In this document: positions 50,840-56,218 of the stretch, piece by piece
How the letters are laid out: each line of letters starts with the position of its first letter
How positions within the stretch are numbered: the stretch's first letter is position 1
Source: Paenibacillus sp. MMS20-IR301
GTDB lineage: Bacteria > Bacillota > Bacilli > Paenibacillales > Paenibacillaceae
Length of the DNA: 64,000 nucleotides
NCBI RefSeq assembly: GCF_032302195.1
Contig: NZ_CP135275.1
Coordinates: 62,001 to 126,000 of the forward strand
Direction: 5' to 3'
Made by a program: the position numbers and the translations under genes
Notes under the pieces: model-generated
The model's database searches: none
The model's input: only the letters and a program-made list of their open reading frames with translations
What the model was told of the DNA's origin: nothing

Positions 50840-52027
50840 ATGCGCATATTGCATACGGGGGACTGGCATCTGGGACGGACGCTGGAGGGCAGGAGCCGGC
50901 AGAAGGAGCAGGAGCAGTTCGTGGATGAACTGGTGGACATTGCCGATTCTTCCGGAGCGGATCTGATACTGATGGCGGGGGATGTCTACGACTCGGTGAA
51001 CCCTCCCGCGGCGGCTGAGCAGCTGTTCTATGATGCTGCAGCCAGACTGACAGCGGGGGGCAGGCCGCTGGTGGTCATTTCGGGCAATCACGATCAGCCG
51101 GAGCGTGTAGCCTCTGTGTCTCCGCTTGTCCGCAGACAAGGGATTACGCTGGTGGGGCTGCCGACGGCTGATCCGGTCACGGTGCATGCGGCAAGAACAG
51201 GCGAGGTGGCCAAAATCGCTGCGCTGCCCTACCCCTCCGAAGCCCGGCTCGGTGAGCTGCTGGCCGGGGACGGCGGAGAGGCGGAGCTGCGCCTGGCCTA
51301 CAGTGCGCGTGTCGGCAGGCTGATGAACCTGCTCGGGCGGGAATTTTCGCCGCAGACTGTTAATCTGGCGATGAGCCATATCTATGTTCTGGGGGGGCTG
51401 GAGAGCGATTCCGAGCGGCCGATTCAGGTAGGCGGAGCTTATACAGTGGACCCTTCAGCTTTGTCCTGCGGTGCGCAGTATACGGCACTCGGGCATCTGC
51501 ACCGTGCGCAGCGCGTCAAGGGTGACGGGATGATCCGCTACAGCGGGTCACCGCTGGCCTACAGCTTCTCGGAAGCGGGACAGGCCAAGTCCGTATCCTT
51601 GCTTGATATTGCGCCCGGGGGGGAGCCGGTGTTCGAGGAAATCTATCTGCGCTGCGGCCGTCCGCTGGTGAACTGGAAATCCTCCGGCGGGCTGGAGGAA
51701 GTCTACCGCTGGCTGGAGGAAGGGCGCGATGCCGATGCTTTCATTGATCTGGAGCTGCGCCTGACCGAGGCGATGTCGATGAATGATATCCAGCGGCTGC
51801 GGAAGTCACGGGAAGGCATTGTCCATATCCGTCCGGTCTATCCGCAGATGGAGCAGGAGCTGGAGGAGCTGTCCCGCTCACGCATGCCGGTGCAGGAGCT
51901 GTTCCGCAGATTCTATCAGCGGCAGACCGGCGGGGCAGAGCCGGAGGACAGTTTGATTGAGCTGTTCCTGGAGCTGGCAGAGGAGGAGCGGAACGAAGCT
52001 GCGGAAGGGGAGGAAATTCACAAATGA
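50840..52027 (+). CDS. sbcD: Exonuclease subunit SbcD (Mre11-like)
   Basis: 395-residue metallophosphoesterase nuclease. Metal-binding motifs run in order: GDWHLGR, MAGDVYDS, ISGNHDQPER, MSHIYVLGG and TALGHLHRAQ. The C-terminal capping part follows. With SbcC it cleaves hairpins and protein-blocked DNA ends. The ATG at 50840 has AGAGGGCGG upstream. The stop overlaps the sbcC start by 4 nt. Length and motifs are complete. Confidence 0.96.
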   Translation: MRILHTGDWHLGRTLEGRSRQKEQEQFVDELVDIADSSGADLILMAGDVYDSVNPPAAAEQLFYDAAARLTAGGRPLVVISGNHDQPERVASVSPLVRRQGITLVGLPTADPVTVHAARTGEVAKIAALPYPSEARLGELLAGDGGEAELRLAYSARVGRLMNLLGREFSPQTVNLAMSHIYVLGGLESDSERPIQVGGAYTVDPSALSCGAQYTALGHLHRAQRVKGDGMIRYSGSPLAYSFSEAGQAKSVSLLDIAPGGEPVFEEIYLRCGRPLVNWKSSGGLEEVYRWLEEGRDADAFIDLELRLTEAMSMNDIQRLRKSREGIVHIRPVYPQMEQELEELSRSRMPVQELFRRFYQRQTGGAEPEDSLIELFLELAEEERNEAAEGEEIHK

Positions 52028-55000
52028 AGCCGATATTACTGAAGGTTTCCGGGCTGCAGAGCTACAGGGAGCCGCAGGAGATAGATTTTGCGAGTCTGAC
52101 CGAGACGGGGCTGTTCGGGATTTTTGGCCCGACCGGCAGCGGCAAATCCAGTCTGCTGGATGCAATTACGCTGGCGATGTACGGCAAGGTGGAACGGGCC
52201 GTAAACGGAACCCAGGGCATTATGAACCATTCCGAGGACCAGCTCAGCGTAGCTTTCACTTTCGAGCTAACGTCCGCTTCCGGGGCAAAGCGCTACCGGG
52301 TGGAACGGAAATTCAAGCGGACCGGTGAGCAGTCGGTCAGCAGTACGATCTGCCGCTTCATCGAGGTCAAGGCTGACGGCGAGGCCGTGCTGGCCGACAA
52401 GCTGGCGGATGTGACCCGCTGTGTGGAAGAGCATATCGGGCTGAAAATGGATGATTTCACCCGGGCGGTCGTACTGCCGCAGGGCAAATTCGCCGAGTTC
52501 CTGTCGCTGCGCGGCGTAGACCGCAGGCAGATGCTCCAGCGCCTATTCCATCTGGAACAGTACGGCGACGGGCTGGCGCTTAAGCTGAGCCGCCGTGTTA
52601 AGGAGAATGAAGCGGCGCTGCGGGCGCTTGAGGCTGAGCAGCAGGGCCTGGGCAGCGCGGCGAAGGCGGATGTCGAAGCGGCAGCGGTCCGGGTGCAGGA
52701 TGCTGTGCGCCATGCGGCGGAATGCCGCAAGCGGCTCACGGAGGCGGCGGAGCGTGCTGAGCGCTTCGCCCGCATCCGCGAGCTGCAGGAGGAGCAGTCC
52801 CGCCGCGGGCGGCAGCGGCAGGCGCTCCAGGCCCAGGAGGAGCAGATTCTCCTCCTGGAGCAGAAGCTCGGCAAGGCTGACGAAGCCGAGAAGCGGCTCC
52901 CCGCGCTAAGCGCCTGGCGCAGTGCGGAAGAGGCCTGGAAGAGCCGTCATGCCCGCGCCGGGGGCCTGGAGGCTCAGGCCGCCGCCGCGGGCATGACGGC
53001 GGCGGCGGCAGCGGAGGCGGAAGCAGCGGCACAGGCCGCGCTTTCCGCCGGAGAGCCGGCCCTCCGCGAGGAGGAGGGCCGCTTCCGCCGCGCGCTCGAG
53101 CTGGAAGCCGAGCTCGGCGGCCTGCGCCGCGAGCGTGCGGCGCTGCTCGCGCGCCGGGATGAGGCTGCCCGTGGCCTAGCCGCCGGGCAGGAGAGCCTGG
53201 CCCGGGAGCGTGAGCTTTTGGCCCGCGGCCAAAAGAAGCAGCGCGAGCTGCAGCAGAGCCTGCAGCCGCTCGCGGTCCGCTCCCAGGAGCGGCAGTCTCT
53301 GCAGGAGGCCATGCAGAGACTGCAGGGCCTGCGTGCTGCCGGCGTCCAGCGGGACGCGGCAGCACGGGAACACCGGGAGCGCGCGGCGGTGCTTACCGCG
53401 GCGCAGGCGCGCCTCGCCGCCGCCGCTGCCCGGCGGCAGGCGCTGGATGCAAGGCGCGGGGAGCTGCTGGCCGCCGCCGCCCTGCATCTGGAAGAGCTGC
53501 AGGCGGCCGAAGGTGCAGCGGAGTCCGCTGCAGACCGCCTGGAGCAGCACACCAGCGCGCTGGAAGCCGCGCTGAAGGACCAGGAGGTCCACAGGCTCTC
53601 GCTGGCGCTTGCCCGTGACCTCCGGGACGGCACTCCCTGCCCGGTATGCGGCAGCGAGCATCACCCCTCCCCTGCGCTTACGCAGGAGCAGGGGGAACAA
53701 GAGGAGCTGGACAGCCGGCTCCGCCTGGTCCGCGCCCAGGCCCGGCAGGCGCTGGAGACGCGCCATCTGCTGCGCAGCCTGCTGGAGCAGGACGGGGCTT
53801 GGCTTGCGCAGCTGGCGGGAGCAGAGGCAGACGAAGCGTTAAGCCAGTCTGCTGCCGCTGTTGAAGCCCCCGGAGCTGCTGGCACCGCAGCCGCCAACGG
53901 AGTCCCCGGGGCCGCTGACACCGCTGCTCCTGAGTTTACTGCTGTTACTGCCACACCAGCCGCTGCTGTTACTAATACAGCCGCAGCTGCTGTTAATGCT
54001 TCTGCCGCTGCTAACATCAATACGGCACCGGACACAGCTGTTACTGATACAGCTGCCGGCAGCGCAGCCTTGACAGAATCAGCAGAGCTGCCGGGTGAAG
54101 CTGCTTTATCAGTTCTGAACGGACAGCTGGCCGGGCTTAAGGCCGGCTCCGCTGACCTGCGCCGTGCAGCGGCGGACTGGCAGCGCTCCCTGCAGGAGCT
54201 GGAGCAGCTGTACCACAAGGAAGCTGCAGGCGCAGAAGCTGAGCAGACCTGGGTTCAGGGCCTGGCTGCCAAGGCGGAAGGGCTTGCCTCAGCGGCAGCA
54301 GCGCTGCGTGAAGAATGGGACAGCCTCTTTCCGCAGCTCGCCCCTGAACAGGCAGAGGCAGCCTATACCGGAATGCTGGCGAAGGATGAGCAGGCGGAGG
54401 AAATCCGCGGCCGGCTGGAGATCAGCGTGAAATTCCTGGACGAGAAAGCTCTGGCCGTGCAGCTACTTCAGGAGCAGCTGGCTGCGCTTGACAAGGAGCT
54501 GGCCCAGTGGAGCGCCCAGTTGGAGGGCAAAGAGGAGCTTGCGCGTGACAAGGAGCTGCGGCTCCGGGAATGGACAAGCGGAAGCCCGGCAGCGGAGCTG
54601 CTCGCTGGCTGTGAACGCAGGCTGCTGGAGCTGCAGACTGCACTGGAGCGCAGCAGGCAGGGGCACCGCCAGGCTGCGGACAAGGCCAGGCAGGAGGCGC
54701 AGGAAGCGGCGGTTGCCCGCCAGGCAGCAGAATCTGCACACGAGCATTACACTGCAGCTGCCTCCCATTGGGAGGAGAGCCTGCAGTCATCGCCGTTTGC
54801 TTCAGCGGCTGAGGTTGAAGCGGCATCGCTTACGGCAGCAGAGCGGATACAGGCTGCTGAGCGGGTGCGGTTACACCGCGAGGAGGAAGCGGAATGTACA
54901 GTGCAGCTGCGGAATATAGAGGAGAAGCTCGCCGGTGCGGTGCTGAGCAGCGAGGAGTGGCAGGAGAGCCAGGAATCCCTGCGTAAGTGCAAGGAAGAAG

Positions 55001-55623
55001 ATGAGAGCTCCCTGCAAGCCCGGGCACGGGCGGAGCGTGATCTGGAGGATCTGCAGCAGCGCCATATCCGCTGGATGGAGCTGGATGGCCAGCGGGCAGG
55101 GCATGCTGCGCTTCAGAATCAGCTGTCCAAGCTGCAGTCCGTACTGCGCGGAAATGCTTTTGTAGAATATGTAGCTGAAGAACAGCTGATGCAGGTGTGT
55201 CAGGCTGCATCGCAGCGGCTCCGTTTCCTGAGCAAGCAGCGTTATGCGCTGGAGGTGGATTCCGGCGGTGGTTTTGTCATCCGGGATGACGGCAACGGTG
55301 GTGTGAAACGCCCGGTTTCCACGCTGTCCGGCGGGGAGACCTTCCTGACTTCGCTGTCGCTGGCGCTGGCTTTATCAGCCCAGATTCAGCTGCGCGGGCA
55401 GTATCCGCTGCAATTTTTCTTCTTGGATGAGGGCTTTGGCACACTGGACCCGGATCTGCTGGATACAGTAATCACCTCCCTGGAACGGCTGCATAGCGAC
55501 CAGCTGTCTGTAGGCATCATCAGCCATGTCCCTGAGCTCCGGGCACGGCTTCCGCGTAAGCTGATTGTTGTCCCTGCAGAGCAGGGCGGCGGGGGTTCGC
55601 GTATCGTTTTGGAAAAAATGTAA
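52024..55623 (+). CDS. sbcC: Exonuclease subunit SbcC (Rad50-like) with a low-complexity insert
   Basis: 1199-residue SMC-like ATPase. The N-terminal Walker A is GPTGSGKSS. A very long Glu/Ala/Arg coiled coil is broken by the zinc hook CPVCGSEHHPSP near residue 538. The signature TLSGGETFLTSLSLALALS and Walker B FFLDEGFGTLD are near the C-terminus. Directly after the hook, at about residues 607-694, there is an Ala/Thr/Val-rich stretch (for example AAAVTNTAAAAVNASAAAN) that is not coiled coil and differs in codon use from the Arg/Glu-rich flanks. The start overlaps sbcD. Confidence 0.96.
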   Translation: MKPILLKVSGLQSYREPQEIDFASLTETGLFGIFGPTGSGKSSLLDAITLAMYGKVERAVNGTQGIMNHSEDQLSVAFTFELTSASGAKRYRVERKFKRTGEQSVSSTICRFIEVKADGEAVLADKLADVTRCVEEHIGLKMDDFTRAVVLPQGKFAEFLSLRGVDRRQMLQRLFHLEQYGDGLALKLSRRVKENEAALRALEAEQQGLGSAAKADVEAAAVRVQDAVRHAAECRKRLTEAAERAERFARIRELQEEQSRRGRQRQALQAQEEQILLLEQKLGKADEAEKRLPALSAWRSAEEAWKSRHARAGGLEAQAAAAGMTAAAAAEAEAAAQAALSAGEPALREEEGRFRRALELEAELGGLRRERAALLARRDEAARGLAAGQESLARERELLARGQKKQRELQQSLQPLAVRSQERQSLQEAMQRLQGLRAAGVQRDAAAREHRERAAVLTAAQARLAAAAARRQALDARRGELLAAAALHLEELQAAEGAAESAADRLEQHTSALEAALKDQEVHRLSLALARDLRDGTPCPVCGSEHHPSPALTQEQGEQEELDSRLRLVRAQARQALETRHLLRSLLEQDGAWLAQLAGAEADEALSQSAAAVEAPGAAGTAAANGVPGAADTAAPEFTAVTATPAAAVTNTAAAAVNASAAANINTAPDTAVTDTAAGSAALTESAELPGEAALSVLNGQLAGLKAGSADLRRAAADWQRSLQELEQLYHKEAAGAEAEQTWVQGLAAKAEGLASAAAALREEWDSLFPQLAPEQAEAAYTGMLAKDEQAEEIRGRLEISVKFLDEKALAVQLLQEQLAALDKELAQWSAQLEGKEELARDKELRLREWTSGSPAAELLAGCERRLLELQTALERSRQGHRQAADKARQEAQEAAVARQAAESAHEHYTAAASHWEESLQSSPFASAAEVEAASLTAAERIQAAERVRLHREEEAECTVQLRNIEEKLAGAVLSSEEWQESQESLRKCKEEDESSLQARARAERDLEDLQQRHIRWMELDGQRAGHAALQNQLSKLQSVLRGNAFVEYVAEEQLMQVCQAASQRLRFLSKQRYALEVDSGGGFVIRDDGNGGVKRPVSTLSGGETFLTSLSLALALSAQIQLRGQYPLQFFFLDEGFGTLDPDLLDTVITSLERLHSDQLSVGIISHVPELRARLPRKLIVVPAEQGGGGSRIVLEKM

Positions 55624-55628
55624 AGCTT

Positions 55629-55680
55629 GGGGTTGACTGTGACAACGATCACAGATACACCTTCAACCCCCTGTTATAAT
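55629..55680 (+). promoter_or_regulatory. Crp/Fnr-type operator and extended -10 promoter
   Basis: TGTGA-CAACGA-TCACA (55638-55653) is an exact match to the Crp/Fnr consensus. TGTTATAAT (TATAAT 55675-55680) is an extended -10. With a start at 55687 the operator centre is at -41.5, the class-II activator position. An outer GGGGTTGA/TCAACCCC pair (55629-55636, 55663-55670) brackets the site. There is no good -35, as expected for an activator-dependent promoter. Confidence 0.65.
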
Positions 55681-55686
55681 ACAGCT

Positions 55687-55799
55687 AAGCCGACATCATT
55701 TGAAACACCTCGGCGGACGTATGACAGGGAATTTGTTCCTTCTCATACGTCCGCCGCCGAAGCAGCTTATATAAGCTGTCAAGGGTGTTTCTTTTTTTT
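55687..55799 (+). ncRNA. Candidate Fnr/Crp-activated small RNA
   Basis: A transcript of about 112 nt is predicted, ending in an 8-U tract at 55792-55799. It folds as a three-way junction. The closing stem is GAAACACC/GGTGTTTC (55702-55709, 55784-55791). Arm 1 is a hairpin of about 19 bp with a TTTG loop (55712-55755; GGCGGACGTATGA with its complement). Arm 2 is the palindrome CAGCTTATATAAGCTG (55763-55778). No SD-linked frame is present; a 17-codon ATG frame inside arm 1 has no ribosome site. No known RNA family was recognised. The closing stem plus T-tract is the terminator. Confidence 0.55.
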
Positions 55800-55826
55800 G
55801 TCTTTTTATCTGTAGAAGTGAAATAA

Positions 55827-55858
55827 CCCCGCCGGAGTCCGGCGGGGTCTGTTTTATT
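55827..55858. terminator. Terminator following the candidate sRNA
   Basis: CCCCGCCGG (55827-55835) / CCGGCGGGG (55839-55847), followed by TCTGTTTTATT. Confidence 0.85.
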
Positions 55859-56103: not shown

Positions 56104-56187
56104 AAAAAGTACTTAAGATTTGACGCGCAGCTTGACCGGGAAGCGGCGACCAGTCGGATTTCCGCCCGTCCGCCCCCAGAGCGCCGC

Positions 56188-56218
56188 CGTCCGCCCCCGT
56201 CCGCCCCCGTCCGCCCCC
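56188..56218 (+). repeat. Short GC-rich tandem repeat
   Basis: Three consecutive GTCCGCCCCC units, with related fragments just upstream from 56165. Confidence 0.8.

Follow-up and report, generated by a model that had tools for sequence, protein, structure and literature searches.

Fnr-activated and redox-linked small RNAs (sRNAs) have been described in two settings that bear on the locus reported here. FnrS of E. coli and its relatives (Durand and Storz 2010) is activated by Fnr at low oxygen, as the relevant passages of a 2021 review of nitrate-respiration regulators describe (PMC8139620). The same passages give RoxS under ResDE as the Gram-positive sRNA example and name none under Fnr. RoxS, or RsaE, of B. 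subtilis and S. aureus is a Firmicute sRNA tied to redox state via a transcription factor. According to the parts of PMC5419742 that deal with its control, RoxS is governed by ResDE and repressed by Rex through a site just downstream of its start, and it pairs with yflS by a C-rich region.

Paenibacillus, according to the abstract of PMC4774088, has uses in agriculture and includes nitrogen-fixing members. For Paenibacillus riograndensis SBR5, RNA-seq yielded 27 intergenic small RNAs, three of them named via Rfam, in the relevant passages of PMC5670726. The RNA described below could be among the other 24; sbcC, Fnr, oxygen and fba do not occur in its main text. No description of this RNA was found in the literature searched.

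The locus lies in a 64,000-nucleotide stretch of Paenibacillus sp. MMS20-IR301 (the window), bases 62001-126000 of a single 7.69-Mb contig. It resembles FnrS in that an sRNA gene would be under Fnr at low oxygen, and pairing with metabolic mRNAs would be expected here too. FnrS differs in belonging to another phylum and in repressing mRNAs that are dispensable without oxygen, whereas here the RNA is predicted to fold as a three-way junction and its tail fits an mRNA 5' end. In contrast to RoxS, the operator is centred at -41.5 and the seed is AGCCGACAU. By analogy, the RNA would resemble FnrS in its control and RoxS in the place of pairing.

FnrS and RoxS/RsaE are both in Rfam. No family in Rfam 15 matches the RNA at its gathering score, and none of ten sub-threshold matches reaches half of that score. 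By this test the RNA is neither FnrS nor RoxS, and assignment to a known Rfam family was rejected. We regard it as a probable new RNA family of a known kind, for which Fnr control and the fba target are candidate claims.

The RNA gene behind sbcC

The element is intergenic and lies directly 3' of sbcC, whose stop is at 55623 (Table 1). The predicted +1 is the A after TATAATACAGCT. Similarity to relatives stops before the second terminator-like hairpin. Further downstream, short tandem repeats of GTCCGCCCCC occupy 56160-56215.

Table 1. Features of the locus in window coordinates
Feature	Position	Strand	Remarks
sbcD	50840-52027		upstream of sbcC; Pfam Metallophos, SbcD_C
sbcC	52024-55623	+	upstream neighbour; Pfam AAA_23, SMC_N, SbcC_Walker_B
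Operator TGTGACAACGATCACA	55638-55653	.	centre 55645.5 = -41.5; conserved core GTGA-N6-TCAC
Conserved spacer GNNACA....CA	55654-55671	+	overlaps the place of a -35
Extended -10 TGTTATAAT	55672-55680	+	inside symmetric CTGT-TATAAT-ACAG
Predicted 113-nt sRNA	55687-55799	+	start predicted from the -10
Unpaired 5' tail AAGCCGACATCA	55687-55698	+	proposed seed; complementary to fba mRNA 5' end
Outer stem 1, 5' strand GAAACACCU	55702-55710	+	predicted fold, alignment
Hairpin 2	55711-55756	+	sequence replaced in distant relatives, architecture stays
Hairpin 3	55762-55779	+	predicted fold, alignment
Outer stem 1, 3' strand GGGUGUUUC	55783-55791	+	predicted fold, alignment
U8	55792-55799	+	U-run also seen in aligned loci
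Second symmetric terminator-like hairpin	55825-55849	.	downstream, outside the conserved element

The sequence-only reading had described a transcript that folds as a three-way junction, ends in U8 and has no frame linked to a Shine-Dalgarno (SD) sequence. Each of these points was borne out. The minimum free energy (MFE) is -52.2 kcal/mol (z = -8.7), and 0 of 200 shuffles fold as well. The MFE structure consists of a closing stem with two hairpins and leaves the 5' tail free, and stem 1 followed by the U-run looks like an intrinsic terminator. A single SD-linked start occurs among the 90 homologous RNAs of the genus, so that no conserved coding frame is present, as is expected of a trans-acting sRNA. 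A small protein gene was also considered and rejected on this count, and in many copies from other genera CTG or ATT replaces the ATG that hairpin 2 has in the window. Coding thus appears unlikely.

Conservation of the fold was examined in two alignments. The first, A1, holds 26 of the 90 genus loci; the six most diverged of the 32 first picked were left out and were later found by the covariance model. RNAalifold on A1 gives 28 pairs, and for 13 of them at least one sequence has both partners changed. Paired cells make up 96.1% of A1, against 91.0% in shuffled and 43-53% in slid versions. An intermediate alignment, A2, held three opposite-strand matches and was set aside. The later alignment, A3, comprises 58 loci, of which 47 were new to the model and 11 had served to build it, and leaves out one locus below threshold (L168). 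Two-sided base changes occur in 28/28 pairs of A3, an alignment that is itself fitted to the structure. Its cells are paired in 92.8% of cases (77% shuffled, 38-47% slid), and its covariation score of 0.409 compares with 0.157 after shuffling and no more than 0.090 after sliding. Base changes that break all three stems, which the earlier reading had said would count against it, are not what the alignments hold: in both A1 and A3 the stems are kept by base changes.

In five loci (L082, L083, L085, L086 and L089) hairpin 2 is unrelated in sequence, and the predicted fold is still a three-way junction. For L083 and L085 this fold is only moderately better than that of shuffles, 9/200 and 3/200 of which are as good. 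The architecture and the 5' tail are therefore kept, and the hairpin sequence is not.

The RNA is widely distributed (all genome counts here are raw, uncorrected for relatedness). By DNA similarity, 90/100 genus genomes match. The covariance-model search that had been proposed as a check was run with a model built from 26 RNAs that starts after the promoter. It places the RNA in other genera as well, with the operator core kept in all 39 loci examined there, from 85 matching genomes outside the genus. Across the family this RNA-only model finds 126/295 genomes and 6/19 genera, or five genera without a weak match in G343 (E = 0.007), which is not among the 39 loci; the family search, run with strict filters, overlooked the RNA of G010. 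The combined operator, spacer and -10 pattern is present in 190/392 genomes of the order and 5/49 genera, at most once per genome and with none for the reversed control among the genomes listed. On contigs with names, 117 stretches match this promoter pattern, and the 80 listed carry the labels Paenibacillus, Saccharibacillus, Fontibacillus and, once, Bacillus sp. Some diverged copies escape these searches: neither DNA similarity nor the promoter pattern picked up G003 and G012, the promoter pattern also missed G107, and all three were found behind sbcC. Absence of a copy behind sbcC, where it is given below, is a reading of 300 nt by eye. Taken on comparative grounds, the element is almost certainly a conserved RNA gene.

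Operator, promoter and candidate activator

Class-II activation is used here with its usual properties, and Fnr of B. subtilis has a known consensus and usually sits at -41.5. The exact TGTGA-N6-TCACA that had been reported here is read directly from the sequence, and its centre lies 41.5 bp before A55687, as claimed. The extended -10 is present as described and no acceptable -35 stands 16-18 nt before it; TTGACT at 55633-55638 is too far upstream of the -10. The locus thus combines the features of a class-II Crp/Fnr promoter, namely a site of this type at -41.5 from the predicted start, no good -35 and a usable -10. The promoter listing for the window has no + strand promoter at the sRNA locus.

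Within the window the operator match is weak evidence by itself, with 2 matches against 1.34 expected when one mismatch is allowed. In the whole genome there are 16 exact sites, against 3 for the reversed pattern. What decides that the operator exceeds chance is its conservation between genomes. The genus loci were examined with a pattern that fixed the spacing and included TCAC.G, did not include GTGA and allowed up to six substitutions overall; they carry GTGA-N6-TCAC in 89/90 cases and ATGA-N6-TCAC in one. The full TGTGA-N6-TCACA is found in 70/90, and the inner bases vary widely. In the other genera, GTGA-N6-TCA[C/T] is present in all 39 loci examined (38 with C), and the distance from the operator core to a TGTTAT-type extended -10, measured and not imposed, is exactly 19 nt in every one. 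The diverged copies G107, G012 and G003 have retained the operator, in one case as TCAT, and their spacing is likewise 19 nt. Loss of the operator in relatives that keep the hairpins, which would have spoken against the sequence-only reading, was thus not seen in either set. Because all 39 loci keep the core and only seven keep the outermost T and A, selection is, on this comparison, on the operator core and not on the perfect 16-mer.

The spacer is conserved as well: in the genus loci its G is kept in 90/90, ACA in 89-90/90 and CA in 83-90/90, these bases being part of the search pattern with up to six substitutions allowed. The GNNACA....CA spacer, in the region 55654-55684, and the symmetric CTGT-TATAAT-ACAG are more than a plain class-II promoter needs, and a second factor bound at 55654-55684 is possible. 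In one subclade an inverted repeat flanks the operator (55631-55669) and both of its arms change together (GGGGTTGA..TCAACCCC and GGGGTTTGA..TCAAACCCC). By raw count, perfect arms of at least 7 nt occur around the operator in 24/90 loci. This repeat could represent the hairpin at the 3' end of sbcC transcripts.

Searches of the window's own genome (G000) gave seven strong matches of Crp/Fnr type and a single Rex. CHCELCPNEIC stands near the C-terminus of one of the Crp/Fnr-type proteins. The iron-sulphur cluster of B. subtilis FNR is C-terminal, as described in the relevant passages of PMC8139620, and the CHCELCPNEIC protein would fit a Bacillus-type Fnr, as expected. In 62 genomes searched, a Bacillus-type Fnr of 78-100% identity was found in 18/18 sRNA-bearing genomes tested, three of which carry the RNA as diverged copies; this supports the original reading of the operator as Crp/Fnr-type, with Fnr binding as a prediction. 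Six genomes without an intact Fnr of the Bacillus type are also without the promoter pattern (G110, G128 and G207 with no match, G118 and G354 with at most 33% identity, and G483 with a fragment). Since 21 of 25 genomes without a copy seen behind sbcC keep an Fnr of at least 55% identity, Fnr does not require the RNA, and Fnr presence was discarded as a sufficient predictor of it. The fnr match is in pieces in two genomes without a copy seen behind sbcC: as two overlapping stretches in G063 (G063:C1:505511-506205) and as a fragment with one TGA in G483 (G483:C15:57586-57777).

About 4 kb from fnr, the own genome has two further operators in front of a nirB-like gene (Pfam Pyr_redox_2, Rubredoxin_C, Fer2_BFD). 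In one case TATAAT follows after 22 nt; for the sRNA operator this distance is 21. The same operator also precedes a cysteine-rich open frame of 58 codons, with TATATT 22 nt further on (L098, 1646954-1646969 of the own genome), and this frame is possibly another class-II target.

Activation in the class-II manner by a protein of the Crp/Fnr family is quite likely in view of this layout, and the protein is probably Fnr, to judge from operator and co-occurrence. The main rival is that the operator belongs to Rex, the NADH-sensing repressor, as for RoxS in B. subtilis, and that the RNA rises with NADH. The core TGTGA-N6-TCACA is common to Fnr and Rex, the Rex consensus being TTGTGA..TCACAA. Rex is encoded in the own genome, and sites of the same sequence at cydA (its second site) and at a nox-like gene overlap or abut -10 elements, as for a repressor. 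At the sRNA, however, the outer bases of the Rex palindrome are not conserved, even TGTGA..TCACA being kept in only 7/39 loci of other genera, and the base after TCACA is G in 90/90 genus loci, against the palindrome. No Rex site was found just downstream of the sRNA start, after 55687, where RoxS has its own; the only such site nearby is the upstream one. The invariant spacing and the lack of a -35 suit an activator, not repression by Rex, which we consider improbable here. Control by another member of the Crp/Fnr family, such as the CRP-like protein encoded at G000:356161-356865 or the one at 6549980-6550612, is a little easier to entertain, given the seven strong matches in one genome and their similar operators. 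Yet the CRP-like protein has a homologue of at least 58% identity in only 6/18 sRNA-bearing genomes, and G215 and G174 carry the RNA and yield only Fnr with either the Fnr or the CRP-like query (1e-10). Fnr and this CRP-like protein were the queries, and on this evidence such control is rather unlikely. That the element is a mere terminator or 3' end structure of sbcC, without trans function, is very improbable. Its position directly after the sbcC stop and its terminator-like end would allow this, but the operator, spacer, -10 and 5' tail are among its best conserved parts, and where no copy was seen by eye (G106, G191 and G307) the next gene follows close after sbcC or a plain terminator-like stretch does. 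Fnr is the activator assumed in what follows.

The 5' tail and fba as a candidate target

The 5' tail AAGCCGACAU is near-invariant in A1 and across the other genera. It is complementary to the start of the mRNA for class-II fructose-bisphosphate aldolase (fba; Pfam F_bP_aldolase). In the own genome the duplex has 12 perfect base pairs, or 13 with a final G-U, at -21.9 kcal/mol, and the fba site starts 11 nt after the -10, near the 5' end of the predicted mRNA. Among 16196 windows of 40 nt from unselected own DNA, only two pair as strongly, and both are the RNA's own antisense. Two other places in the own genome with the 10-mer pair slightly more strongly than fba (-22.3; L356 and L391).

The seed complement ATGTCGGCTT occurs at 64 places in four genomes, 63 of which were examined (an antisense match in G069 was left out). 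Its genome-wide counts show no consistent excess over the reversed control (20 vs 17, 25 vs 13, 9 vs 19 and 10 vs 20), and a general enrichment of seed sites was rejected as a line of evidence. In G000 and G055 the seed match lies directly behind the -10 of the fba promoter; since the fba site was first noticed in these two genomes, they do not count as independent tests of it. The other matches common to genomes, apart from fba and the RNA's own antisense, were dismissed as candidates: they fall within coding frames or else, in G039 and G069, a TATAAT lies between the match and a response-regulator-like frame, which probably places the match outside the transcript. In the own genome only, ATGTCGGCTT also spans the start codon of an open frame that follows a GGAGGGG stretch (L400, 6202498-6202507), a possible second target.

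Upstream regions of fba were then compared in 30 more genomes, 28 of which gave a match, including G039 and G069, in which the seed scan had not picked up fba. The energy test left out G107 (no -10 recognised) and G172 and G181, in which no fba match was found at 1e-80 though both have the RNA. In 22/23 genomes the duplex of the tail with its own leader beats 95% of shuffles (at most 25/500 as good); none of 500 is as good in 13/23, and at most one in 16/23. Pairing is weak in G010 (61/500 shuffles as good), G308, G032, G182 and G225. In G003 and G012, whose copies of the RNA are diverged, the tail (AAGCCGAC-U/C-UUCUCUU region) pairs at -21.0 with a leader that is altered to match, AAGAGAA-GUCGGCUU; G016 has an altered leader like theirs with an ordinary tail, at -16.5. 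Own leaders have no clear advantage over the leaders of other genomes (mean rank about 10 of 23), and superiority of the own leader was dropped as an argument.

Action of the RNA through its 5' tail is likely. Whether fba is a real target is a closer call, and we hold it tentatively, at slightly under even, because of the weak pairings, the rank of own leaders, the retention of UCGGCU in genomes without the RNA and a possible hairpin of the leader's own. The evidence is mixed: pairing is poor in some genomes, and part of the site persists where the RNA is absent. An evenly balanced alternative is that the RNA is Fnr-driven and fba is not its target, the leader being kept because of its own hairpin (GUC..GAC) and its fit to the tail being fortuitous. 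The leaders of G300, G034, G021 and G004, where no copy was seen behind sbcC, keep UCGGCU, and the inconsistent seed counts point the same way. Against this, the leaders of 23 sRNA-bearing genomes are more complementary to the consensus tail than those of 6 sRNA-lacking genomes (one-sided Mann-Whitney p = 0.005 for the 16-nt tail and p = 0.02 for the 10-nt core, both uncorrected for relatedness), and the tails of G003 and G012 fit their own altered leaders. Many fba leaders (L409-L436, read by eye) carry GUCGG..CC..GAC, also in genomes without the RNA, and this element could form a small 5' hairpin.

Proposed mechanism and significance

The explanation that we favour, with some reserve, is that of a class-II, Fnr-activated, base-pairing sRNA with fba as the best target found. 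The element would be a free-standing trans-acting sRNA gene behind sbcC. A Bacillus-type [4Fe-4S] Fnr, active without oxygen, would bind GTGA-N6-TCAC at -41.5 and recruit RNA polymerase to the extended -10 promoter that lacks a -35. The resulting 113-nt RNA would end at its own terminator, and its three-way junction would leave the tail free to pair with target mRNAs. The fba transcript is predicted to begin with sequence complementary to this tail. Pairing at the extreme 5' end may protect fba mRNA against RNase J1, in the manner of RoxS with yflS (PMC5419742), and the protected mRNA would raise glycolytic flux when respiration stops. Protection of the 5' end is the simplest proposal because the fba site is close to the predicted mRNA 5' end, as in the RoxS-yflS pair. 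Competition with the leader hairpin and translational repression are possible alternatives. If fba is the target, stabilisation would be the somewhat more probable direction of the effect.

A stronger version would make the RNA a Gram-positive counterpart of FnrS, induced anaerobically, kept in Paenibacillus, Saccharibacillus and Fontibacillus, and linking Fnr directly to glycolysis by shielding the 5' end of fba from a 5' exonuclease; taken as a whole, this version is doubtful. If the proposal is true, the locus would provide a defined and widely conserved Fnr-linked RNA in Firmicutes, with its promoter, seed and candidate target. It would bear on whether oxygen controls central carbon metabolism through RNA in these bacteria.
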